From the IMG/VR virus record IMGVR_UViG_3300003690_003731, positions 1 to 36,718 of that record: 36,718 nt of DNA. One strand, 5' to 3'. Within the stretch, counting starts at the first letter, position 1. The number at the start of each line of letters is the position of its first letter. Made by a program: the position numbers and the translations under genes. Source of the DNA: a virus. Shown here one piece after another: positions 8,477-31,499 of this stretch. Under the pieces are notes generated by a model. It saw nothing but the letters and a program-made list of their open reading frames with translations. It was not told the origin of the DNA and ran no database searches.

Positions 8477-8883
8477 ACAAATGGCAGCAACTAGAAGAGC
8501 AGCTCTCTGGCATCTTCGGCACCGCCAAGATCCTCGCTGACGGCTATGAAGTGGTCTTTTACAAGCGTCTTAGCAAGGGTGAGCGCCTGGTGATTGAGAT
8601 CTATGTGAACGGCCAAATCAAAGGGGAGTGGTTCATGCGCGGCGAGAACGGCACAACTAAATACCCCGAATCCCGTTTCTTTCGTCCGCGTAAGAGTCGT
8701 GCATATCCCGTTAAGCAGTATGGAAAGCTCAAGCGGATATTCGGCAAGAAACAAGCCGACAACATGGTGGAGCTGAAAACCGTCATGTTTGACCCAACAT
8801 GGAACAGCTCCAAAACGCTGATCAGCCACCTGAAAAAGCACTTCCCAGACCTGGAGCTGAAAGCCGATGAGGTGACGTCATGA
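8473..8883 (+). CDS. Hypothetical early/middle protein (136 aa)
   Basis: Not recognised. The fold looks mixed alpha/beta, with strands YEVVFYKRL and RLVIEIYVNGQIKGEWF, a basic middle (RFFRPRKSRAYPVKQYGKLKR) and a C-terminal helix (LISHLKKHFPDLEL). It has 4-bp ATGA overlaps with both the DUF2786 gene and gemA, so it is translated with them. Confidence 0.68.
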   Translation: MNKWQQLEEQLSGIFGTAKILADGYEVVFYKRLSKGERLVIEIYVNGQIKGEWFMRGENGTTKYPESRFFRPRKSRAYPVKQYGKLKRIFGKKQADNMVELKTVMFDPTWNSSKTLISHLKKHFPDLELKADEVTS

Positions 8884-9302
8884 TCAGCAAAGGCAAGCTG
8901 GCCCAGATCCACATCGCTAAAGCCCAACTGGGCCTAAGCGACGAAGACTACCGCGCCATCCTGGCGCGCACAGCGGGCGTGAACAGTGCCAAAGAACTCA
9001 CAAATCGCACTGTTGGCGGTGTGATGCACGAGTTCCGCCGCCTGGGGTTTGAGCCTAAGCCAGCCAAAAAGGCAGGCCGGAAAGCACCTAACCCACCGGC
9101 GACACGCCAAGCGGAAATGAAAAAGGTCGAAGCATTGCTGGCGGAAGCGGGCCGCGCCTGGGCCTACGCGGATGGAATGGCCAAGCACATGTTCAGAGTC
9201 GACCGCGTGGACTTTCTCGATGATAACCAACTGCACAAGCTGCTCCAGGCGTTGATCATCGACGCCAAGCGGCAAGGACGGTACCCCGATGACCTCGCCT
9301 GA
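8880..9302 (+). CDS. gemA: GemA-like regulatory protein (gp16 family, DUF1018)
   Basis: A 140-aa member of the Mu gp16/GemA family. The N-terminal signature is clear: KGKLAQIHIAKAQLGLSDEDYRAIL followed by 'GVNSAKELTNRTVGGVMHEFRRLGF', then a basic linker and a C-terminal helical domain ending LIIDAKRQGRYP. Mu GemA is reported to alter host gene expression and DNA topology; the exact role here is inferred. It lies directly before the Mor-like activator, exactly as in Mu, and overlaps it by 14 bp. Confidence 0.9.
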   Translation: MISKGKLAQIHIAKAQLGLSDEDYRAILARTAGVNSAKELTNRTVGGVMHEFRRLGFEPKPAKKAGRKAPNPPATRQAEMKKVEALLAEAGRAWAYADGMAKHMFRVDRVDFLDDNQLHKLLQALIIDAKRQGRYPDDLA

Positions 9303-9702
9303 CGATAACTTCAATTTAGGGTTTGATGAGATCCCCGCCGATGCACTGGAGCGTCTACCCGACCCTGAACTGGCACGCCACTGGCCTCAGTCACTGGTCG
9401 ATATGCTTCAGGTCATCGAAGCCGAATACGTCGACGTGGGCATCGCGCCGCGCATCGCACAACGCCTGGCGTTTTCCACCCTAAGAATTCTGGCGTATTA
9501 CCACGGCGGGCAGGTATTCTATTTAGCCAAAGGGGATCAGCTCGACCGCGCACTGCGCGACCACCAGATATGGTGCGAGTTCGATGGCAGCAACCATGCC
9601 GAACTGGCACGGCGCTACGATAAGGGTGTGATGCAGATCTACAAGATCCTGGCCGAGCAGCGGTCACTACACCGCAACCGCGTGCAGCCAGGACTGTTTT
9701 GA
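9289..9702 (+). CDS. mor: Mor/C-family transcription activator
   Basis: A 137-aa Mor-family activator. The N-terminal dimerisation part (LPDPELARHWPQSLVDMLQVIEAEY) is followed by GIAPRIAQRLAFSTLRILAYYHGGQVFYLAKG, the family core, and a C-terminal helix-turn-helix (NHAELARRYDKGVMQIYKIL). In Mu, Mor turns on gene C and C turns on late promoters. Only one such gene is visible here, so this protein probably acts directly on late genes. Candidate targets are the dyads at 10751-10764 and 19931-19944. Start ATG 9289 follows AAGGACGG. Confidence 0.92.
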   Translation: MTSPDDNFNLGFDEIPADALERLPDPELARHWPQSLVDMLQVIEAEYVDVGIAPRIAQRLAFSTLRILAYYHGGQVFYLAKGDQLDRALRDHQIWCEFDGSNHAELARRYDKGVMQIYKILAEQRSLHRNRVQPGLF

Positions 9703-9741
9703 CTGTCTGATAAGAAAGCAAGCAGATAAAAGGGGAACAAT

Positions 9742-10329
9742 ATGAAAATGCTAGCAGGGGTAATGGCGTTACTAGCGGTTGGCACTGCCCACGCTTCCGA
9801 GGATTGCGCTGATATATCAAATGACCAGCGTCGCTTGGCTTGTTATGACGCAGAGTATCGTCCTGCAACTGAGCGGCAAATCGTCTCAGAGTGGAACGTT
9901 AACGAAAAAACGTCACCCATTGACGATAGCAAGACAGTTGTACTCCGCACAGAATCGATTGAGCCTGTTATTGGCCGCTTTGGAAGAGACAGCAGGCCAA
10001 ACCTGATTCTGCGTTGCCACGAAAATACGACGGTTATGTACATGAGTTTTGATGAGCACCATATGGCGGATATTCAGGGCTATGGCCGTGTAACGATGAG
10101 GGTAGATCAGCAGGACGCTGTGACGCGTGATATGTTGGCTTCTACTGACCACAAGGCGCTAGGGTTATGGAATGGCGGCAGATCTATTCCCGCAATACGA
10201 AGTCTGTTTGATGCTGATGTTCTTACTGTTCGTGTCACCCCTTACAGCGAATCACCTATTACTGTTCAGTTTCCGATTGGCGGGCTGGAAGAGGCTATTT
10301 CGCCGCTGCGTGAAGCGTGCAATTGGTAA
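9742..10329 (+). CDS. Secreted protein resembling TagO/VasI (T6SS-associated) family
   Basis: A 195-aa exported protein. Residues 1-18 form a signal peptide (MKMLAGVMALLAVGTAHA, cleavage after AHA). The mature N-terminus has Cys22 and the RLACYD motif (Cys34), a pattern typical of the VasI/TagO family of type VI secretion-associated periplasmic proteins. The rest alternates strands (LILRCHENTTVMYMSF, YGRVTMRVDQ, LTVRVTPYSESPITVQF), consistent with a beta-rich domain. It lies between mor and the lysis cassette, a common cargo site. Likely a moron affecting the host envelope, for example superinfection exclusion; this is inference. The SD-like AGGGGAAC precedes the ATG. Confidence 0.6.
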   Translation: MKMLAGVMALLAVGTAHASEDCADISNDQRRLACYDAEYRPATERQIVSEWNVNEKTSPIDDSKTVVLRTESIEPVIGRFGRDSRPNLILRCHENTTVMYMSFDEHHMADIQGYGRVTMRVDQQDAVTRDMLASTDHKALGLWNGGRSIPAIRSLFDADVLTVRVTPYSESPITVQFPIGGLEEAISPLREACNW

Positions 10330-10366
10330 CGACCTCACCAGCTACCAATAGTAGAAGGGGAACATC

Positions 10367-10684
10367 ATGAAAGCATTCGCAGGGATTACGATTATCATCG
10401 CAGCGCTACTGGCCGGTTGCGAATCCGGGGACGTAAAAATAGCTAAAGAAGCCGTTGCCAACCAGCTTCGCGATCCTGAATCAGCGCAGTTCCGCAATAT
10501 CAGCGAGACGGCTAATAATTTGGGTATGGCGACTGTATGCGGTGAGGTAAATGGTAAAAACTCTTACGGAGGTTATGTGGGTTATCAGCGTTTCGTGAGC
10601 CAAGCAGATGGGGATAATGTCTACCTCGAAAATGCCTGGAACACATTCGATAGTGTTTGGTCACGACACTGCAGCAAAGCCTAA
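10367..10684 (+). CDS. Small lipoprotein, probable cargo gene
   Basis: A 105-aa lipoprotein: signal peptide followed by the lipobox LLAGC with the modified Cys at residue 18, then ESGD. The mature part contains VANQLRDPESAQFRN and VCGEVNGKNSYGGYVGYQRF, a motif pair seen in many small bacterial envelope proteins of unknown role. Its leader (AAGGGGAACATC-ATG) closely resembles that of the preceding secreted protein, suggesting joint acquisition. A terminator closes this two-gene unit. Function unknown; a superinfection or envelope role is possible. Confidence 0.72.
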   Translation: MKAFAGITIIIAALLAGCESGDVKIAKEAVANQLRDPESAQFRNISETANNLGMATVCGEVNGKNSYGGYVGYQRFVSQADGDNVYLENAWNTFDSVWSRHCSKA

Positions 10685-10708
10685 ACTAAATCTCACTGTC
10701 CCCCAACA

Positions 10709-10735
10709 AACCCGCTTCGGCGGGTTGTTTGCTTT
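10709..10735 (+). terminator. Rho-independent terminator with UUCG tetraloop
   Basis: AACCCGC (10709-10715) pairs with GCGGGTT (10720-10726) around a UUCG loop, followed by the T-rich stretch GTTTGCTTT. An outer CCCC (10701-10704) and GGGG (10738-10741) could extend the structure. It separates the early/middle and cargo transcript from the late lysis operon. Confidence 0.85.
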
Positions 10736-10748
10736 CTGGGGCATTTTT

Positions 10749-10800
10749 CTTTAATCCCCGCTAATCCCGGCGCCTCGCTCTACCCCCCTATCCTGAACCT
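10749..10800 (+). promoter_or_regulatory. Putative late promoter (Plys-like) with Mor/C-type dyad
   Basis: The block 10749-10795 matches 19929-19975 at 35 of 47 positions without a gap. It contains CTTTAATCC-C-CGCTAA with a TTA-N8-TAA dyad centred at 10757.5, and a -10-like TATCCT at 10789-10794; no good -35 box is present, as expected for an activator-dependent promoter. With a start near 10801 the dyad would be centred at about -43.5, the position used by Mor/C-type activators. The first gene downstream is the holin. Confidence 0.62.
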
Positions 10801-10846: not shown

Positions 10847-11182
10847 GTGAACCTACCATCACTTTTCCAGAAGCTGCTCAATAAACTCCACATTGGCCCC
10901 AAACTACTCGACAAACTTCGCATTGGCCCCTGGCTGATCCTTGCTCTCATTACCACTGTTGGCGTGGGCTTCTTATACCCGCACCAGTTGGGCGTACTGC
11001 TCTGGTCGCTGACAAAGCTCTGCTGGGGTGCCTACCTCGGCTATTGGATCGACCGCTCCATCTTCCCCTACGCCCGCCCCGGCAATCTCCTCGGGCCGCC
11101 AGCGAGTTCCCTTGGTCTCTTCATGCTCCGCCGCGCCATCATCATTGCAGCCGCGCTCTTAGCCCTTGGCCTAGGAGTCTGA
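10847..11182 (+). CDS. Putative holin / lysis membrane protein
   Basis: A 111-aa membrane protein opening the lysis cassette. Three hydrophobic segments are visible: ~28-46 (PWLILALITTVGVGFLY), ~50-66 (LGVLLWSLTKLCWGAYLGYW) and ~90-110 (FMLRRAIIIAAALLALGLGV). The segment KLRIGPWLI and the GYWIDRSIFPYARP signature resemble putative holins of B3/D3112-type phages. The N-terminus has a near-duplicated KLHIGPKLLDKLRIGPWL. Start is GTG at 10847 with GAGG upstream; the nearby ATG at 10834 is out of frame. The holin role is inferred from topology and from the adjacent transglycosylase and spanins. Confidence 0.7.
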   Translation: MNLPSLFQKLLNKLHIGPKLLDKLRIGPWLILALITTVGVGFLYPHQLGVLLWSLTKLCWGAYLGYWIDRSIFPYARPGNLLGPPASSLGLFMLRRAIIIAAALLALGLGV

Positions 11183-17057: not shown

Positions 17058-18201
17058 CGCCCAGTTCAACCGCCCGTTCCCAGAGCAGGTCACGTTCTTC
17101 CGTAACAAGTTGAACCTACCCACGCGCCGCTCTGGCGATATCACCCGTGACCAGAACGACGCAGCATTTGTGGTGGCCGGTGCCACTAAGGCGGATCTGC
17201 TCGCGGATCTTCGCGGCGCAGTAGACGACGCGATCAGCAACGGCCAGAGCCTTGGCGAGTTCCGCAAGCAGTTTGAAGAGATCGTTGCCCGGCGTGGTTG
17301 GACTGGCTGGACAGGGGAAGACACCAAAGCGGGCCGCGCCTGGCGCACTCGGTTGATCTACAAAACCAACCTGGATACAAGCTACGCCGCTGGCCGCTGG
17401 GCCCAGATGACCGACCCCGATGTGGTACGGCTGCGCCCTTACTGGCGCTACGTACACAACACGGTCGAGAACCCACGCCAGCAGCACAAACGCTGGCACA
17501 ACCTGGTGCTGCGTCACGATCACCCGTGGTGGCAAACCCATTTCGCGCCCAACGGCTTCGGCTGTAACTGCGGTGTGGAAACCCTCAACGAACGCGGCTT
17601 AAAGCGCCTGGGCAAAGACGGCCCAGATGCAGCTCCGAATGATGGCACTTATGAGCACGTCGATAGCACCACCGGCGAAGTGGTCACAGTGCCCAACGGC
17701 GTGCAACCAGGATGGGACTATGCGCCTGGGCAGATGGCTACCGAGCGTGCGATCGCAGCGCGCTTGAACCGGCTGGATAGCGTCGAGGCCACCATTGCCC
17801 GAGAAAACGTTGCACAGTTAGTCGAAGCGCCGGTATTCAATCGCTTTTTTAATGGTGAGATGCGAGGCGAGTATCCGGTAGCCGTTGTGCCGCCGGTCGA
17901 GCGTGAAGTGCTGGGGGCAGAAAGCCCTGTGGTGCTGTTATCTCAGCAGAGCCTAAGTACGCACCGTGAGCGTCACCCAGAGATCGGTATCAACGACTAC
18001 CGCCGCGTGCAGCAGCTACTGGACGATGGCGAGGTGTACCGAGTGCCCAACGACCCAGGCCGTTTGATCTACCTAATCATTGAAGGCGTCACCTATCGCG
18101 CCGCGCTCAAGCGCACCGAAGACGGTAAGAAGAACTACTTTCTGACGCTGTTTAAAAGCCGCACAGACCAGCCGCCGCCAGGAGCGGAGCGGTTGAGATA
18201 A
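17047..18201 (+). CDS. MuF-like minor head protein with C-terminal toxin-like domain
   Basis: A 384-aa phage Mu F/gp30-type head morphogenesis protein. Residues ~10-130 are the N-terminal gp30 domain (FFRNKLNLPTRRSGDITRDQ...). The Phage_Mu_F core lies at ~131-185, with HNTVENPRQQHKRWHNLVL, HDHPWWQTHFAPNGFGCNC. From ~residue 281 a separate ~100-aa domain follows: LSTHRERHPEIGINDYRRVQ, VYRVPNDPGRLIYLI, YRAALKR and YFLTLFKSR, which resembles the barnase/EndoU/ColicinE5/RelE-like nuclease domains often fused to MuF proteins. ATG 17047 has GAGG 9 bp upstream; ATG 17032 is an alternative. Head role is strong; nuclease assignment is tentative. Confidence 0.9.
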   Translation: MPISAQFNRPFPEQVTFFRNKLNLPTRRSGDITRDQNDAAFVVAGATKADLLADLRGAVDDAISNGQSLGEFRKQFEEIVARRGWTGWTGEDTKAGRAWRTRLIYKTNLDTSYAAGRWAQMTDPDVVRLRPYWRYVHNTVENPRQQHKRWHNLVLRHDHPWWQTHFAPNGFGCNCGVETLNERGLKRLGKDGPDAAPNDGTYEHVDSTTGEVVTVPNGVQPGWDYAPGQMATERAIAARLNRLDSVEATIARENVAQLVEAPVFNRFFNGEMRGEYPVAVVPPVEREVLGAESPVVLLSQQSLSTHRERHPEIGINDYRRVQQLLDDGEVYRVPNDPGRLIYLIIEGVTYRAALKRTEDGKKNYFLTLFKSRTDQPPPGAERLR

Positions 18202-18863: not shown

Positions 18864-18928
18864 CGCGTTAGACCCGCGTTAGATTTTGTTTAAGCGCGCT
18901 TAACGCCAGGGTGTTAGAAGGATATAGT
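18864..18928 (+). promoter_or_regulatory. Independent promoter and operator-like sites before cargo gene
   Basis: TTAACG (18900-18905) and TATAGT (18923-18928) are 17 bp apart, a reasonable sigma-70 promoter. The perfect 14-bp palindrome TTAAGCGCGCTTAA (18890-18903) overlaps the -35 box, and two copies of CGCGTTAGA (18864-18872 and 18875-18883) lie 11 bp apart just upstream. GGCGCT/AGCGCC near 18800-18815 is a further small hairpin. This layout suggests a separately controlled gene with its own repressor or autoregulator. Confidence 0.55.
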
Positions 18929-18977
18929 GCCCCCATTGAGAAAAATAAACGCCAATGGGAAATGTAACGGGGAACAT

Positions 18978-19907
18978 GTGACCAATACTGATGATAACCA
19001 AGAAGCTTATTTTGTCGAGATTCCGTTAAATCTCTATTTTAAAACTGACGAGCCAGTCGCCATCAAAGATGTTGCCAAGTCATTGCTAGCTATTGAGACG
19101 ATGGCCAAGCGTTTTCCTGGCATGCTGACAGACCTGACTGGCATTGATATAGACCACTACGAACTTAGCGTATCGAAGATAGAAACCGGCAGCCTAATTG
19201 AGGCGCTTGGTTTAATGGTGTTTCTCAGTAGTCCTGAGCAGCGCCAGGCACTCTTCGATTTTCTGGAGAACAGCCCGATGGGTAAGCCTTTAAAATACTC
19301 GCTAATGGGCCTGCTTGCGCTGTTGCTCGTGAGCGAGTCTTATAATTTGCTGACCCAGTTTACTAAGAGCGACGCTCCTACTATCCAAGGTAATCACAAT
19401 ACCCTAATCCAAATCACTGCAGAACAGATCGGCACGACCCCCGATGAAGTCCGCTTGGCATTGAATAACGCCACTCAAGGTAAGCGCAAAGAGCTTGTAA
19501 AAGCAGGGCTTGATGTCGCGGCCCCCATTGAGAACCATGAAAATGCGTCTTTACATGCGGGTGAATCAGCGACATCGGTGTCAATTCCCGTGGAAGCAAT
19601 TCAGGAAGTACCTTTCGATGTCGACTTTGGTACTTACGAGCACTCCATCGGTTATATAGAGACACTGCTACAGATACGAGTTTTAGATCGAGATAGTGTC
19701 GATGCTGGGTGGAAAGGACTGCTGCCAAACGTTTTAGGTGAAGCCCGTTTAAGAATTCTATTTGATACTGATGTGGATATGGAGTTAGTGACTACGCAGC
19801 CGGAAGTGACGGTTGATGCAACTGTCACCTACAGAAACGATATAAATAAAGGTACTTTGGTTCCTAAATATATAACAGTTACTAAGGTTTACCCTCCACA
19901 GAGATAG
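18978..19907 (+). CDS. Unknown cargo (moron) protein with one membrane segment
   Basis: Not recognised; inserted between the G-like and protease genes where Mu has none. Codon use is more AT-rich than its neighbours. I start at GTG 18978, preceded by CGGGGA; an in-frame GTG at 18927 would lie inside the predicted -10 box (it would give 326 aa, this start 309). In the longer numbering, residues ~45-115 are helical, ~124-142 are a transmembrane segment (YSLMGLLALLLVSESYNLL), then GNHNTLIQI, a helical part, and a beta-rich C-terminal domain (IETLLQIRVLDRDSVDAGWK, VTVDATVTYRND, YITVTKVYP). One span plus a soluble domain fits a membrane-associated sensor or effector. A superinfection or defence role is a guess. 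Confidence 0.8.
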   Translation: MTNTDDNQEAYFVEIPLNLYFKTDEPVAIKDVAKSLLAIETMAKRFPGMLTDLTGIDIDHYELSVSKIETGSLIEALGLMVFLSSPEQRQALFDFLENSPMGKPLKYSLMGLLALLLVSESYNLLTQFTKSDAPTIQGNHNTLIQITAEQIGTTPDEVRLALNNATQGKRKELVKAGLDVAAPIENHENASLHAGESATSVSIPVEAIQEVPFDVDFGTYEHSIGYIETLLQIRVLDRDSVDAGWKGLLPNVLGEARLRILFDTDVDMELVTTQPEVTVDATVTYRNDINKGTLVPKYITVTKVYPPQR

Positions 19908-19928: not shown

Positions 19929-19980
19929 CTTTAATCCACGCTAAACGCCGCCCGCCACCCTAGCCCCCGATCATGGGGGC
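19929..19980 (+). promoter_or_regulatory. Putative late promoter (PI-like) with hairpin abutting the start codon
   Basis: 19929-19975 is the second copy of the 47-bp late-promoter block (35/47 identical to 10749-10795). The dyad TTA-ATCCACGC-TAA is centred at 19937.5 and a -10-like GATCAT lies at 19969-19974. The predicted start is about 19981, again placing the dyad at -43.5, which is the A of the protease ATG. GCCCCC (19963-19968) and GGGGGC (19975-19980) form a perfect hairpin around GATCAT that touches the ATG. In transcripts reading in from upstream it would hide the start region. The loop holds a GATC, a Dam-type site. Confidence 0.6.
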
Positions 19981-21099
19981 ATGACTACACACAGCCTTCA
20001 AACAAAGCCCCGCGCAATTCACGTCGCCGCCTGCGCTCTCCGAGTGCAGATCACCGACGACAAAACGCGCCTGATGCCTGCTGGCACCTTCCACGCACCG
20101 CGTGGGGCCGCTGAAGGCACTGGCCCGTGGCATCTCTCTGCCGAAGCCGCTCAAGCGATTATCCAATTGGCAGCTGCGCGCAGTACCGACATCGCCATCG
20201 ACTACGAACACCAGATCCTTTACTCAGAAAAGAACGGCAAACCCGCGCCAGCGTCTGGCTGGGTTGACCCGCGATCGCTTGAGTATCGGGAAGATGGCCT
20301 CTACGGCTCGATTGCCTGGACGGCCCAAGCCCGAGCAGCGATCACGCCTGGGCCAAACGGCGAGCCGCCTGAATATCTCTACCTCTCCCCCGTATTCCCC
20401 TACGACGCCAACGGTGTGCCGCTCGATCTGCTGCACCTGGCGTTAACCAACACCCCAGCCATCGACGAAGGTGCAGCGCAGCTTGCGGCTGCGCGTATGT
20501 CGGTAACGAACGACACCCCCGAGGAGACTGACACCGTGGATCGTGAACAACTAATTGCCGCTTTAGGCTTGGCCAAAGAGGCCACCGACGAACAAATCAA
20601 CACCGCAATCGCTGCGCTGAAAGCCGCCAAGGCCGATGCCGACGCCTTCCGCACAGCATTGGGAGCCAAAGACGACGCGAAGCCCGAAGACGCCGTGGCC
20701 GCTCTCAAATCCTCCAGTGCTAGCGCTCCCGTAGACATGAGCCAGTACGTACCCAAGGCCGCGCATGAAGAAGCCCTAGCGGTGCTGCGCTCTGGCGTCG
20801 TCGCCAATGAGGCGGCGGAGATTGAGCGACTGATTAAGGAAGGCTTAGACGACGGAAAGATTTTTGGCCCTGCGTATGCCGATCATTTGCGCGCTCAAGG
20901 CCTCGCAGCGCTAAAAGCCCACCTGGATGGCGCGCCCAGCATCGCTGCGCTGAAAACCACCCAGACCCAAGGCAAGCCACCTGAAGGTAGCGAGGTGAAA
21001 GGCGACGACAAGCTGACCGAAACAGAGCTGGCGGTGTGCAAAGGCATGGGCATCTCGCCGGAAGCGTACCGCAAGGCGAACCCCGTACCCGCTGCATAA
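19981..21099 (+). CDS. Phage protease, Mu I-like
   Basis: A 372-aa Mu gpI-type prohead protease that cleaves scaffold and itself during head maturation. Residues ~10-165 are the protease domain: ALRVQITDDKTRLMPAGTF, DIAIDYEHQILYSEKNGKPA, ASGWVDPRSLEYREDGLYG, YLYLSPVFPYD and LALTNTPAIDEG. The remainder is a helical Ala/Lys/Asp-rich scaffold-like part. There is no SD outside the hairpin ending at 19980, so it may be read from a leaderless mRNA. It lies between the cargo gene and the decoration protein. Identity as protease I is strong. Confidence 0.88.
   Translation: MTTHSLQTKPRAIHVAACALRVQITDDKTRLMPAGTFHAPRGAAEGTGPWHLSAEAAQAIIQLAAARSTDIAIDYEHQILYSEKNGKPAPASGWVDPRSLEYREDGLYGSIAWTAQARAAITPGPNGEPPEYLYLSPVFPYDANGVPLDLLHLALTNTPAIDEGAAQLAAARMSVTNDTPEETDTVDREQLIAALGLAKEATDEQINTAIAALKAAKADADAFRTALGAKDDAKPEDAVAALKSSSASAPVDMSQYVPKAAHEEALAVLRSGVVANEAAEIERLIKEGLDDGKIFGPAYADHLRAQGLAALKAHLDGAPSIAALKTTQTQGKPPEGSEVKGDDKLTETELAVCKGMGISPEAYRKANPVPAA
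20536..21099 (+). CDS. Nested in-frame scaffold protein (Mu Z-like)
   Basis: Inside the protease gene, GAGGAG (20521-20526) lies 9 nt before an in-frame GTG at 20536, which would yield a 187-aa product beginning MDREQLIAALGLAKEATDEQ. This covers the helical scaffold half of protease I. Mu makes its scaffold Z the same way, from an internal start in I. An in-frame ATG at 20497 is a weaker alternative. The product would help head assembly and then be degraded. Confidence 0.55.
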   Translation: MDREQLIAALGLAKEATDEQINTAIAALKAAKADADAFRTALGAKDDAKPEDAVAALKSSSASAPVDMSQYVPKAAHEEALAVLRSGVVANEAAEIERLIKEGLDDGKIFGPAYADHLRAQGLAALKAHLDGAPSIAALKTTQTQGKPPEGSEVKGDDKLTETELAVCKGMGISPEAYRKANPVPAA

Positions 21100-25979: not shown

Positions 25980-28900
25980 GTGGCTCAAGATCTAACGCTA
26001 GGCGTCAAGCTAACGGGCGATGGAAGCCAGCTTTCGGGCACCCTAAAGGATGTCCGAAATGACGTGCGGGAGTTTGGTACCACTACCGAGCGAGAGGGTG
26101 ATCGTTCAGAACGATCGCTCAGCGATTTCGGGAGTACAGCACAAAAAGAAGGCAGTAAGGCAGCGCGCGCACTTCGATCCACAGGGACAGAAGTGTCGTC
26201 GGTATCTAACCACTTGGGCAGTATGCAGCGCATAGCCACCGCTGCGCTGACTACCCTGGTGGGCTTTGTCGGCATCCGAGGCATCAGCAATGAGTGGTCG
26301 GAGATTCGACGTGAATCCGAGCTGTTGGAGCGTAACCTGTTTCGCCAGCAGCAGTTGATCGAGACGACCGGCAGAACCGCTGAGCGATCGGCACAACAGA
26401 TGCTAGAGCAATCGAGAGCGCTAGCGTTGGGTACCCTTCAAAGCACAGAAGGGGTCATGCAAGCCCAGCAAACCCTGATGACCTTTAGGAATATTCGAGG
26501 AGAAGTGTTTGACCAAGCCATTGAGGGCGCCCTTGATCTAGCGTCCGCTATGGGCACTGATTTGAACAGCACCATTCTGCAGGTGGCCAAAGCGCTGGAA
26601 GATCCTGTCACGGGGATGACGGCCCTCACCCGATCGGGCACGGTGTTCACTGCTGCACAGCGCGATATGGTGCGCGGCATGGTGGAAACCAATCGTACCG
26701 CAGACGCACAGGCATTCATCCTGAGCGAACTGGCCGCCCAGTACGGCGGTGTTGCGAAAGCCGAAGCAGCGGGCCTGGCAGGTGCTCAAGACACGATAGG
26801 CCAGGCGATGCAGGAAGCACGGCTGGAGATTGGTGAATATCTACAAGTCGGAAAACGCCTATCTGCTTTTTATAACAACACTGCAACGACCATTTTCCAG
26901 TTCAACGATGCACTGGGGTCTGGTGACTTAGACGGTCATATCCGCCTGATGACAACTACCGCCGCTGCTGTGGGTGCTGCTGCTGGTGCCTATGCAACCT
27001 ATCGAGCCATTCTGGTCTCAGCAACGGTGGCTCAGTGGGCATTTAACACGGCGGTTCGCGCCAATCCTCTCGGCATCGCTATTACCCTGCTGGGCGCTGC
27101 TGCGGGCGCTATGTTTGCCTATCGCGAGGAAGTAACCCTAGCTGGAAGTGAGTCGTTTCAAACCTCTATTGATGTTGATGGGCTTACCAGCTCTTTTCAC
27201 CTTCTCACCGAAGCCCAACAGGAAAACAAGCGCGCCTCACTCACTGCCGATTTAATCGAAATGCGTGTGGAAGCTGGCCGCTTGGGCAGCGAGTTGGTAG
27301 AGGTTTCGCGCAAGGTACGTAACTCTGGCCAGCTCACCCCGCAAGGCGGTGCACTGCCTGTTGCCACGCCTGAAGACATTCAGAAAGGCCGTGAACTACG
27401 CCAAGAATTAGGCATGCTGTTATCTGATATTGATAACGGCTCCCAGCTACTAAGTGAATACGACCAAGCAATGGCATCGCTTGGTGAGACCACCCGCGAT
27501 ACCGACACACGCACAAGAACGCTGGCTGAAACAAATGCCGCCGCATCCAAAGCAGCTGATGAACTAGCCAAATCCACCCAGGGCCAAGCCGACGCCCTAG
27601 AAGACCTCTACGATCGCTTAATCCCAGGCCGCCGCGAAACCGTCCAGCTAGCGCGAGATATCCAGACGCTGAACCTGGCCATCGCCATGGGCACCGGCAA
27701 CATCGGGCAGAACATTCAGGCGATGGGGCTGCTACAACAGCAGTTCATCGAAGCCCAGAACGACACCGACGACCTCGCTAAAAAGACGGTAGACGCCGCC
27801 TTCACGATGGAAGGCGCCTGGGACGAAGTGCGCCTGAATGGTTTGCGCCGCTTAGATGACGGCTTTACCGATCTCTGGGAAGGCGCGATCGACGGCAGCC
27901 TGAACGCTGGCGAAATCATGAAGCGGGGGTTAAATCAAACGCTGGCTGAGATGGGCCAAATGGCCTTTACGCGGCCAATCACTGTGCAGTTTGCGACCAG
28001 CATGGGGTTTGGTGGTACCGGCGCTGGTGGCCAGCAGGCTGGCGGTGGCGCTCAATCCTTCGGCGGTATGCCTTCGTTTAGCGGCATGATGGATGGTAGC
28101 GGCGCGATCGCTAACGCCTACCGAGCTTTCCAAGGCACTGGCTCCACCTACGCGGGCACCTTCGGCAGTGAGTTAGCCGTTCAAACCCAAGGCGGCTTAA
28201 AAGCCGGTTTTGAATCCTTTGCTGCCAGTGGCGTAGGTAATGCCACGTTAGGTCTTGGTGGCGGTTTCGTTGGCAGTAAGCTTGGCGGTTCGGTATTCGG
28301 CGAAAGCAAAGAGCAGCAGATTGGCGCCACGGTGGGTGGTATAGCTGGGCAGGTATTAATCCCTATCCCTGGCGTTGGCGCTGGCATTGGATCGTTCCTG
28401 GGCAGCGGCCTCGGTTCGCTGTTCGGCAGCGCACCCACAAAATTTAGCGGTCGCTTTGGCACTACCGCATCACTCGACCGTAGCGAGGGTGCGGGCAAAG
28501 ACGGCGTGTTTGAACACCAGGCCGATGGCCGCTTCTACCGCGAAACCGCGCTGGGTTATGCGGGCTTCCGCGACCAGGGCACGGAACGCCTACAGCGTGC
28601 AGGCGTCGGGGAAGACAAGCAGTGGGCGGAGGATCTCGTCAACGCTACCGCCGCCATGGACGCCTTAACGGTCAGCGTAGCCCGCTCTGATGAGCAGGTT
28701 TCGACGATGCGCGACACCGTGCAAGGGCTGGAGGCGTCAGGCCGAAACGCCGGTGAGATCATTGAGTTTGCGCTCAAAGGCCGCGCCCTGGCCGCCCTGG
28801 AGTCGATCGGGTACACATTCAGCGACGCTGTTAGCTCACTGCCTGCCGATGAGTTCACGGCTCGCTTAGAGATCATGGCAGGCGGCATGGGCGTGCTCAT

Positions 28901-31499
28901 GCAAAGCACCGACCGCCTAAACCTTAATTTCGACGCCACCGCCGCAGGCGCTCTGGAGGCCGCCGGTAATCTCGCCCAGATCGCCGGTGGCGTTGATAAC
29001 CTCGCCGCGATCAATCAGGGCTACTACCAGGCCACCTACAGCGAAACCGAACGCCTAAGCCGCTCACAAGCGGATCTTCGCGCCTCACTGGCGGGCGTTA
29101 CCGATCAGGTGCCTACCACGGTTGCAGAACTACGCAACATGGTCGAAGCCCAGAACCTGAATGATGCAGCCGCAGGCGAACTGGCCGTGCGGCTAATGGA
29201 GCTAGCCCCGGCACTCAAGCAAACCAACGACGCAGTGCGCCAGGCCATCGAAGAGCAGTACCAGGAAAGCCTAGGCCGCGCCCCAGATGCGTCGGGCATG
29301 GACTACTGGTTTAACCAGGTAGCGACTGGCGGTGCAACGTTAGAGCGTGCCCTCTCAGCGATCGCCGCCAGCTCAGAAGCCGCCGCATTCGCGGCTGAAG
29401 ATGCAGCGGGCAGCGTCGATACCATGGCTGATGCGCTGCGCGAGCGTGAGCAGCTTGAACGCCAACTACTGACCCTGGAAGGCAACACAGCCGAGCTACG
29501 CCGCCGTGATCTTGAAGCGACAGACGAAAGCAACCGAGCGCTTCAGCAGCGAATTTGGGCCGTGCAAGATGAGCAAGAACGCCTGCGCAACTTAGAACGA
29601 CAGCAGCAAGAACGTGTGCGCACGATCCAGCAAGAAGCATCCGCCATGGCCCGCGCCCGAGAGCAGCTAGCCAGCTTTGGCGTCAGCATCACCAGCTACG
29701 TAGATAACCTGCGCAGCACCGACGCCGGTTTGGGCTCACCTGCCGACCAGCTAGCTGCCAGTTCTCAAGCGTTTTACGAACAATACGACAAGGCGGCATC
29801 GGGCGACCGTGATGCGATGAACAGCATCACGCAATATGCAGACCGATTTATTGAAGCCCAGCAAGGCTGGAGCGCGAGCGGTAGCCAGACGACGGCGACG
29901 ATCGACAAAGTCGTAGGCATGCTGGAATCGCTGCCCGAACAGCTTAGCCCTGAGCAATTTTTGGCGGATGAGTTCAGGGGGATCATCACTGATCAGACAG
30001 AAACACTAGGTGATGTATTTGGCAGCGGCTTTAGCAATGCCATCACTTCGCTCTCTCAGAACTTTGACCAGCTCGATACGAATTTGAATGGTCTGCTGAC
30101 TTACGATGAGATTAAAAGAGCGTTAGGTGACAAGGCAACAGACGCCCAGGTTGCAGTATTAATCGCTGCCGTAGATACAAACGGCGACGGCATGATCAGT
30201 CGCCAAGAGCTGACCAATGCCCGGTTGGGAGGGCTAGCAAAAGGCGTTGCATCATCGCTAGAGGGGTCATTTGACCTCTTAGACACCAGCTTAGACGGAT
30301 TGCTGACCTATTCTGAGCTGAGGCAAGGCCTGGGCGGGCTCGCAACTGACGCCCAAGTAAAAGCCATGATGCGCAGTATGGATCTCAACGCCGATGGCGT
30401 CATCAGTCAGTTAGAGAGTGTCGTTATCGCAAGCATGCCCACAGATGCGGTACTCGGTACCGTACTTCGCAACAAAATGACCGAAGTGGGCAGCCGTCAA
30501 TTGACCCACAGTCAGGTTCGCAATGCACTCTCCCCGATTGCAACCGACGCTGAAATTAGCCGATTGATACGCGAAGTCGATGTTAACGGCGACGGCATGA
30601 TCAGTCAGCAAGAACTGACTAATTCGCGCCTTGGCGGGTTGTCCCACGGGATCGCTAACGCTGTTGCCGGTGAATTCGACCGTATCGACCTTAGCGCTGA
30701 CGGACTGATCGACTACAACGAGTTTCGTAAGACGTTTGCCGGAATGGCGACCGACAGCCAGCTGCGCCGAATTTTTAACCAGCTGGATGCGACGCGCACG
30801 GGCACGATCTCACGTCTAGATGCGCAAACTAATGAGCTCGTAACAGCCGCTAAGTCTATCGACCTGTCCGAACAAGAACAGTCCATTGTCCGCGCCTTAA
30901 ATGCGCAGCAAAACTCGGACACAGTTCGTTGGTGGGGTTGGAATTTTGCTAATGAGTTCCAGCGTAAGTTTAAACCGTCGGTTGGTGAGGGCATTGGTGT
31001 CTCGCTTGCACCGGCGCAAAACGGCGATGGCGCACGTTCGATTGCAAAAGCGTTCAAGCAAATTCTTGGTGCCAATACAAACGGCTCTCACGCAACCGGA
31101 CTGGGTTATGTCCCGTTTGATGGCTATATCGCAGAACTGCACAAAGGCGAGATGGTCGCGACCGCGGAAGATGCAAAAGTGCTCCGAGAATTGGCGGGTG
31201 GTGCTGCGATGTCAGCTCCGCCGATGCCAGCCCCGCGCGGGCTACCCATGCCCACGTTGCCCGCGTTCCCACTACTCGACCAAAGCGATCAGACGCAGCT
31301 AATGCGCGACGTATTAAATGAAAACAAGCAGCTACGCGCTGACATTAAAAAGCTGATGAGTGAAAGCAACAAACACCTGGCAGCGGCCAATAACCAACGC
31401 GGTGCGGCGGCGAAGGGGCAGATCGGCGCCATCGAGCGCGGCAACAAGATGCTTAAGCGCATGGACGATGACAAGCGGCTGGAGGCGGCGAAACGATGA
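25980..31499 (+). CDS. Tape measure protein with DUF4214-like and EF-hand repeats
   Basis: A 1839-aa tail tape measure protein. Start GTG 25980 with AAGGA upstream. The N-terminal ~90-300 region (STEGVMQAQQTLMTFRNIRG, LTRSGTVFTAAQRDMVRGMV) is TMP_2-like; hydrophobic segments lie at ~325-385. A Gly-rich stretch covers ~670-820. A DUF4214-like segment is at ~1091-1137 (QYQESLGRAPDASGMDYWFN). Seven EF-hand-like loops begin at residues 1366, 1399, 1435, 1468, 1534, 1570 and 1603; an eighth, near 1503, is degenerate. The end carries YVPFDGYIAELHKGEMV, usual in tape measures. Calcium-binding repeats in this place are unusual. The 3' end overlaps the next gene by 4 bp. Confidence 0.93.
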   Translation: MAQDLTLGVKLTGDGSQLSGTLKDVRNDVREFGTTTEREGDRSERSLSDFGSTAQKEGSKAARALRSTGTEVSSVSNHLGSMQRIATAALTTLVGFVGIRGISNEWSEIRRESELLERNLFRQQQLIETTGRTAERSAQQMLEQSRALALGTLQSTEGVMQAQQTLMTFRNIRGEVFDQAIEGALDLASAMGTDLNSTILQVAKALEDPVTGMTALTRSGTVFTAAQRDMVRGMVETNRTADAQAFILSELAAQYGGVAKAEAAGLAGAQDTIGQAMQEARLEIGEYLQVGKRLSAFYNNTATTIFQFNDALGSGDLDGHIRLMTTTAAAVGAAAGAYATYRAILVSATVAQWAFNTAVRANPLGIAITLLGAAAGAMFAYREEVTLAGSESFQTSIDVDGLTSSFHLLTEAQQENKRASLTADLIEMRVEAGRLGSELVEVSRKVRNSGQLTPQGGALPVATPEDIQKGRELRQELGMLLSDIDNGSQLLSEYDQAMASLGETTRDTDTRTRTLAETNAAASKAADELAKSTQGQADALEDLYDRLIPGRRETVQLARDIQTLNLAIAMGTGNIGQNIQAMGLLQQQFIEAQNDTDDLAKKTVDAAFTMEGAWDEVRLNGLRRLDDGFTDLWEGAIDGSLNAGEIMKRGLNQTLAEMGQMAFTRPITVQFATSMGFGGTGAGGQQAGGGAQSFGGMPSFSGMMDGSGAIANAYRAFQGTGSTYAGTFGSELAVQTQGGLKAGFESFAASGVGNATLGLGGGFVGSKLGGSVFGESKEQQIGATVGGIAGQVLIPIPGVGAGIGSFLGSGLGSLFGSAPTKFSGRFGTTASLDRSEGAGKDGVFEHQADGRFYRETALGYAGFRDQGTERLQRAGVGEDKQWAEDLVNATAAMDALTVSVARSDEQVSTMRDTVQGLEASGRNAGEIIEFALKGRALAALESIGYTFSDAVSSLPADEFTARLEIMAGGMGVLMQSTDRLNLNFDATAAGALEAAGNLAQIAGGVDNLAAINQGYYQATYSETERLSRSQADLRASLAGVTDQVPTTVAELRNMVEAQNLNDAAAGELAVRLMELAPALKQTNDAVRQAIEEQYQESLGRAPDASGMDYWFNQVATGGATLERALSAIAASSEAAAFAAEDAAGSVDTMADALREREQLERQLLTLEGNTAELRRRDLEATDESNRALQQRIWAVQDEQERLRNLERQQQERVRTIQQEASAMARAREQLASFGVSITSYVDNLRSTDAGLGSPADQLAASSQAFYEQYDKAASGDRDAMNSITQYADRFIEAQQGWSASGSQTTATIDKVVGMLESLPEQLSPEQFLADEFRGIITDQTETLGDVFGSGFSNAITSLSQNFDQLDTNLNGLLTYDEIKRALGDKATDAQVAVLIAAVDTNGDGMISRQELTNARLGGLAKGVASSLEGSFDLLDTSLDGLLTYSELRQGLGGLATDAQVKAMMRSMDLNADGVISQLESVVIASMPTDAVLGTVLRNKMTEVGSRQLTHSQVRNALSPIATDAEISRLIREVDVNGDGMISQQELTNSRLGGLSHGIANAVAGEFDRIDLSADGLIDYNEFRKTFAGMATDSQLRRIFNQLDATRTGTISRLDAQTNELVTAAKSIDLSEQEQSIVRALNAQQNSDTVRWWGWNFANEFQRKFKPSVGEGIGVSLAPAQNGDGARSIAKAFKQILGANTNGSHATGLGYVPFDGYIAELHKGEMVATAEDAKVLRELAGGAAMSAPPMPAPRGLPMPTLPAFPLLDQSDQTQLMRDVLNENKQLRADIKKLMSESNKHLAAANNQRGAAAKGQIGAIERGNKMLKRMDDDKRLEAAKR

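Follow-up and report, generated by a model that had tools for sequence, protein, structure and literature searches.

Two 47-bp blocks in the genome of a Mu-like phage, one preceding the holin gene and the other the head protease gene, are very probably its activator-dependent late promoters, and the similarity of their dyads between phages follows that of a single Mor/C-family activator. The window (the whole stretch of DNA analysed, a 36,718-base IMG/VR record) encodes homologues of Mu transposase, the AAA protein, GemA, Mu gp27, gpI and gpT. Close relatives are present in Halomonas llamarensis and Vreelandella hamiltonii, and in the V. hamiltonii genome exact matches to CTTTAAYYCNCGCTAA occur only twice, both inside the prophage; a megablast search of the block region against named phages gave no match. 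Promoters of this kind are known from Mu, where they are called Plys and PI. A sequence-only reading had already proposed the two blocks as late promoters, which our comparisons support through Mu geometry, an outgroup matrix, conservation at both gene borders and covariation of dyad and activator; it had missed the layout at block 2, where the protease message is predicted to be leaderless and its start codon is abutted by a hairpin. The coordinates are collected in Table 1.

Table 1. Features of the window that bear on the two late promoters and their activator
Feature	Position	Strand	Remarks
gemA (Mu gp16-like)	8880..9302	+	Pfam GemA 1e-25; served as linked control for covariation
Sole Mor/C-family activator gene, 137 aa, overlapping gemA	9289..9702	+	Pfam Mor 3.8e-26, phrog_532
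Terminator-like stem-loop just 5' of block 1	10709..10726	+	
Block 1, lysis-side late promoter (Plys-like)	10749..10795	+	
Block 1 dyad TTA-N8-TAA	10751..10764	+	Centre 10757.5, about -43.5
Block 1 -10 hexamer TATCCT (as in Mu PP)	10789..10794	+	Predicted +1 about 10801
Holin gene, first after block 1	10847..11182	+	GTG start at 10847; Holin_2-3 1.3e-15, phrog_1528
Block 2, late promoter 5' of the head protease gene (PI-like)	19929..19975	+	
Block 2 dyad TTA-N8-TAA	19931..19944	+	Centre 19937.5
GC hairpin GCCCCC-GATCAT-GGGGGC	19963..19980	+	Ends 1 base 5' of the ATG; covaries in relatives
Block 2 -10 hexamer GATCAT, which is the hairpin loop	19969..19974	+	Predicted +1 = 19981, A of the start codon
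Mu gpI-like head protease/scaffold gene, predicted leaderless	19981..21099	+	Mu-like_Pro 8.4e-79; no Shine-Dalgarno sequence

The blocks align without gaps and are identical at 35 of 47 positions, as first described, while the next-best 47-mer in the window, with both strands considered, reaches 26/47. Both contain the core CTTTAATCC-N-CGCTAA that had been pointed out, and a search of the whole 36,718-base record allowing up to two mismatches returns these two sites alone (reversed control, 0). Within each block, the dyad consists of the expected TTA (10751-10753 and 19931-19933) and TAA (10762-10764 and 19942-19944), and the -10-like hexamers lie, as claimed, 31.5 bp past the dyad centres, so that the dyads would be at -43.5. 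Neither block contains a sigma-70 consensus promoter, as expected if the promoters are activator-dependent. For block 2, an alternative -10 (CTAGCC/TAAGCC) was dropped, since close relatives do not conserve it. A third promoter resembling PP or Pmom was also sought, and no other 47-mer in the window resembles the blocks. The right end of the genome (35927-36718) carries a D12-class adenine methyltransferase gene, in the position that the mom modification gene has in Mu, and no block-like promoter was found 5' of it.

This arrangement reproduces the geometry of Mu. The oligonucleotides used for Mu Plys, PI, PP and Pmom (the last as the tin7 variant) all have xTAA followed by 24 nt and the -10 (PMC4461284), and exactly 24 nt separate xTAA from the -10 in both blocks; in Mu Pm, the Mor dyad is centred at -43.5 (PMC4287176). 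Each block has a dyad at about -43.5 with a TAA right half and a -10 without a recognisable -35, and the sites stand 5' of a lysis gene and of protease gene I. The genes downstream were correctly assigned to the holin and Mu-like protease families, and Mu does have Plys at the C-lys border and PI at the G-I border. Using a matrix built from 13 late promoters of Mu and other Mu-like phages, none of them from the window's clade, we scored about 73,000 window positions; block 1 ranks first and block 2, which has a weak -10, ranks sixth, with four other positions scoring between them. In the close relatives L004, L006 and L008 the two blocks take ranks 1 and 2.

Relatives whose activators are 89-95% identical to that of the window have both blocks at the same borders wherever the borders could be read. 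Block 2 is kept from CTTTAA to the start codon amid flanking DNA that is unalignable on both sides. The terminator-like stem 5' of block 1 keeps its position and differs in stem sequence; it would separate upstream transcription from the block 1 promoter. An exact 16-mer search of IMG/VR also returned 16 contigs (L010-L025), which we set aside as chance matches: they have no second block, and their 47-mer scores are at most 20.5 versus 36 to 54 in true relatives. No clear common late block was found in Vibrio martha or Shewanella MuM16-2. Between the activator gene and block 1 (9703-10748) lie two cargo-like genes, one (9742-10329) for a secreted protein of the VasI family (Pfam 1.4e-17), the other small and lipoprotein-like (10367-10684); in relatives, block 1 lies anywhere from about 0.1 to about 1.9 kb beyond the activator, which marks this interval as a slot for variable cargo. 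Between a morphogenesis gene and block 2 sits another gene, with no assigned function (18927-19907, phrog_4506); because the DNA of most relatives differs at this place, the gene looks like a further swapped cargo gene. Further downstream, the 1839-aa tape measure-like protein (25980-31499) contains several pairs of EF-hand calcium-binding motifs (EF-hand_7 2.2e-30), unexpected in a tail protein.

We examined all six-frame open reading frames of the window with a profile and found one Mor/C-family protein (E 6.5e-70; next reading frame 1.8), in agreement with the sequence-only reading. Among characterised proteins Mu C is nearest to it (41% identity, compared with 30% for Mu Mor). The protein has a Mor domain with a C-terminal helix-turn-helix, and matches the Mu C structure 9l0x at 5.6e-30 (also 9vw8) and Mor 1rr7 at 2.4e-16. 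The entries 9l0x, 9vw8 and 9l0y were taken as database entries, as no paper on them was found among the open-licence literature searched. The activator gene is directly 3' of gemA, like Mor in Mu. The three steps of the Mu cascade (Mor, C, late) are not seen in the window, which has one Mor/C protein and in which no other site of the block type was found, and a single homologue in the early-operon position after gemA suggests a cascade that would pass from early to late in one step. Specifically, a dimer of this protein would bind the TTA-N8-TAA dyad at about -43.5 and bring host RNA polymerase to a weak -10 that lacks a recognisable -35, so that block 1 would switch on the lysis and packaging operon and block 2 the head and tail operon. 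With the activator gene closing the early operon that contains gemA, and with no second Mor/C protein present, the step would be single. Such a single-activator layout is not unusual, as other Mu-like phages have the same.

Natural variation in the activator allowed its relation to the dyads to be followed in about 48 Halomonas-type phages, with correlations calculated over 35 non-redundant genomes. Many of these phages carry activators of a second class (class II) that are only 45-56% identical to that of the window; in the same genomes gemA, terminase, portal, holin or protease, varying by genome, can be 90-100% identical to the window's. Class II promoters were located by their -10 or start codon, never by the dyad. 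At both borders their dyad has ACTCCTAAANC or a similar sequence as the left half and GCTTGATTCCC or GCTTTAAATCC as the right half, and the centre and the 24-nt spacing are unchanged relative to the window's. Dyad class equals activator class at every classifiable promoter (45/45 on the lysis side, 29/29 on the protease side), and the classes on the two sides agree in 26/26 genomes; a few sites, in L164, L194, L195 and L199, fit neither class, and these either go with more divergent activators or were not located confidently. Lysis-dyad similarity correlates with activator identity at r=0.89 versus r=0.04 with gemA identity (partial correlation with the activator 0.92, permutation p=0.0002), and the rest of the promoter tracks the activator far less closely (0.45). 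On the activator tree, dyad class undergoes a single change, versus four on that of gemA and three each on those of portal and terminase small subunit; supported gemA branches force at least three. The class exchange is backed by only about three independent contrasts, on well-supported gemA branches, and with so few contrasts tree-based significance is out of reach. In the simplest reading, the activator would bind the dyads and recombinants with mismatched sites would be lost. This covariation appears to be new relative to the open-licence literature searched.

These comparisons bear on several other explanations of the blocks. Both stretches are GC-rich, intergenic and C-rich, which raises background matching, yet chance likeness is already refuted by the comparative data: the next best window match is 26/47, and the blocks recur at both borders in the close relatives that are readable at both. 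A short repeat spread by recombination, marking module boundaries with no promoter function, would fit the position of block 2 exactly at a mosaic junction, conserved amid unalignable DNA. Such a repeat is very improbable, as the blocks reproduce Mu promoter geometry, an independently trained matrix recognises the block, and the dyad half varies with the activator far more than the -10 half. It is also conceivable that the activator binds the blocks but needs an additional, unrelated phage or host factor, in which case the cascade would not truly be one-step. Having no second Mor/C homologue would be compatible with an unrelated regulator, and further small DNA-binding proteins and early genes of unknown role are encoded in the window; against this, block-like sites are these two only and the activator tracks their variation, and we regard an extra factor as improbable.

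The two promoters are predicted to differ in the messages they make. From the +1 of block 1, an ordinary leader would run to the holin gene, which has a Shine-Dalgarno-like sequence 5' of its GTG. Bacterial transcription usually starts about 7 nt past the -10, which would place the +1 of block 2 on the A of the protease ATG. In each of 17 non-redundant protease promoters, exactly 6 nt separate the hexamer from the ATG, and no Shine-Dalgarno sequence was found 5' of the ATG in any of them; most other window genes have one. The procedure that picked start codons favoured ATGs with A and T at two key -10 positions, but this pattern has a background of 3.3%, so the preference cannot account for 17/17. 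We therefore regard the protease mRNA as probably leaderless, starting on the A of the ATG. Kasugamycin resistance is a property of leaderless mRNAs (PMC5230787).

In these promoters, the 6 nt after the hexamer pair with the bases 5' of it (GCCCCC/GGGGGC, GGGCGC/GCGCCC, GCCCGC/GCGGGC), forming a hairpin. Over 11 distinct rows, 97% of cells are paired and covariation is 0.415, compared with 0.088 in shuffled controls and 0.085-0.136 in versions of the hairpin slid along the alignment. With the loop size relaxed, a 6-bp stem ending 0-1 nt 5' of the ATG is found in 16/17 and a 5-bp stem in 17/17; a 6-bp stem with a loop of 3-8 is found at 13 of the 17 protease promoters versus 3.8% of window ATGs. 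The window hairpin taken alone is modestly unusual (z -2.0). As a possible translational coupler we considered a short reading frame that opens at an ATG within the loop of the hairpin, and dropped it because L154 lacks the loop ATG. If transcription starts at the ATG, the hairpin is carried by read-through RNA only. Read-through transcripts would then contain a hairpin that would hinder protease translation, and such gating is a possibility that we put forward tentatively.

The same layout occurs in phages of Pseudomonas. Phage Bise and L072, L074 and L083, all of Pseudomonas type, have a leaderless-type layout 3' of the activator gene, and Bise, L067, L078 and L083 have it 5' of the protease gene as well; in two Bise-type relatives the stem is weakened. 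JBD25 has CAA, 24 nt, CAGAGT, GGCGCC and the ATG, with a hairpin. Of 18,644 ATGs, those preceded at the right spacing by a perfect TAAA-N4-TTTA lie in three places only, namely 3' of the activator gene, 5' of the protease gene and, in Bise, at a third gene start. The latter is on the minus strand of Bise (L028), with an ATG at 138 preceded by TAAAGACCTTTA, 24 nt, CAAAGT and 6 nt; the gene is annotated merely as hypothetical and the genome is rearranged. Taken together, it is conceivable, at somewhat less than even confidence, that Mu-like phages of halomonads and pseudomonads share hairpin-gated leaderless late promoters and exchange activator alleles together with both distant sites. As part of the same joint reading, and with the same reserve, the gated genes might be translated from their own activator-driven transcript only and be silent in read-through. 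The hairpin-flanked leaderless start appears new against the open-licence literature searched, where nothing relevant turned up for either the late promoters of Mu-like phages or their leaderless messages.

The late promoters might be real and the protease mRNA nevertheless have a leader, with transcription starting elsewhere and the 6-nt spacing incidental; the hairpin would then serve mRNA processing, stability or polycistronic translation. A covarying hairpin that lies outside its own transcript needs a reason, and read-through from block 1 would carry it, both of which suit such a role. The 6-nt distance from -10 to ATG in 17/17, its recurrence, with differing sequences, in Bise, L072, L074, L083 and JBD25, and the failure to find a Shine-Dalgarno sequence where most other window genes have one speak for the leaderless start, and we consider a leadered message rather unlikely.

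The promoters share with Mu Plys and PI their gene borders, a dyad whose right half is TAA, a spacing of exactly 24 nt before a weak -10, the lack of a good -35 and a Mor/C-family activator. Mu has Mor, then C, and four late promoters, whereas two sites and a single activator are found in the window. By its annotation Mu PI is not a leaderless promoter, since its -10 ends at 18023 and I begins at 18056, and no hairpin abutting the ATG was seen there. Mu Pm and Mor resemble the window in the position of the activator gene directly 3' of gemA in the early operon and in the dyad at -43.5. Mor, however, drives the middle promoter that makes C, whereas the window protein, in the position of Mor, is closer to C and would act on the late promoters directly. 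Enterobacterial-type prophages (L031, L038, L029) and the Pseudomonas phages Bise and JBD25 likewise have one Mor/C protein in the stretches read and paired late promoters with fixed spacing, but their dyad sequences differ from the window's; the Bise type also has the predicted leaderless, hairpin-flanked layout at the gene 3' of the activator, a layout absent from L031, L038 and L029. In Pasteurella phage Pmp9 (L027), these two borders (after 2956 and before 11482) have a different common block, GAAACTTCACAAACTCAC, whose dyad is GTTTG-N8-CAAAC; the stretch read contains one C-type activator, and the pair may represent a further class of activator and site.

For hairpin gating, the closest precedent by analogy is T4 gene e, whose long early transcripts fold into an inhibitory structure that is absent from late transcripts (PMC3014915). 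In T4 e (lysozyme), soc, 49 and I-TevI a hairpin lies at the translation start and a late promoter in its 5' part, so that the structure forms in read-through RNA only (PMC3014915). The T4 helix sequesters the Shine-Dalgarno sequence and/or the AUG of a leadered message, whereas in the window there is no Shine-Dalgarno sequence, base -1 is the last base of the hairpin, and the AUG itself is the predicted 5' end of the late transcript; an inhibitory effect of the hairpin here would be an extension from T4.

These results describe a form of the Mu late switch with a single activator. In dozens of genomes the allelic activator classes come naturally paired with the sites that match them, making the DNA specificity of Mor/C proteins readable and testable by simple swaps. 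If the leaderless start and its gating are true, they would provide a compact way to tie the translation of a gene to one promoter, and the hairpin-gated layout would also be present in laboratory-tractable Pseudomonas phages. The exchange of activator alleles with both distant sites, if true, would be a natural re-wiring of a phage regulon.
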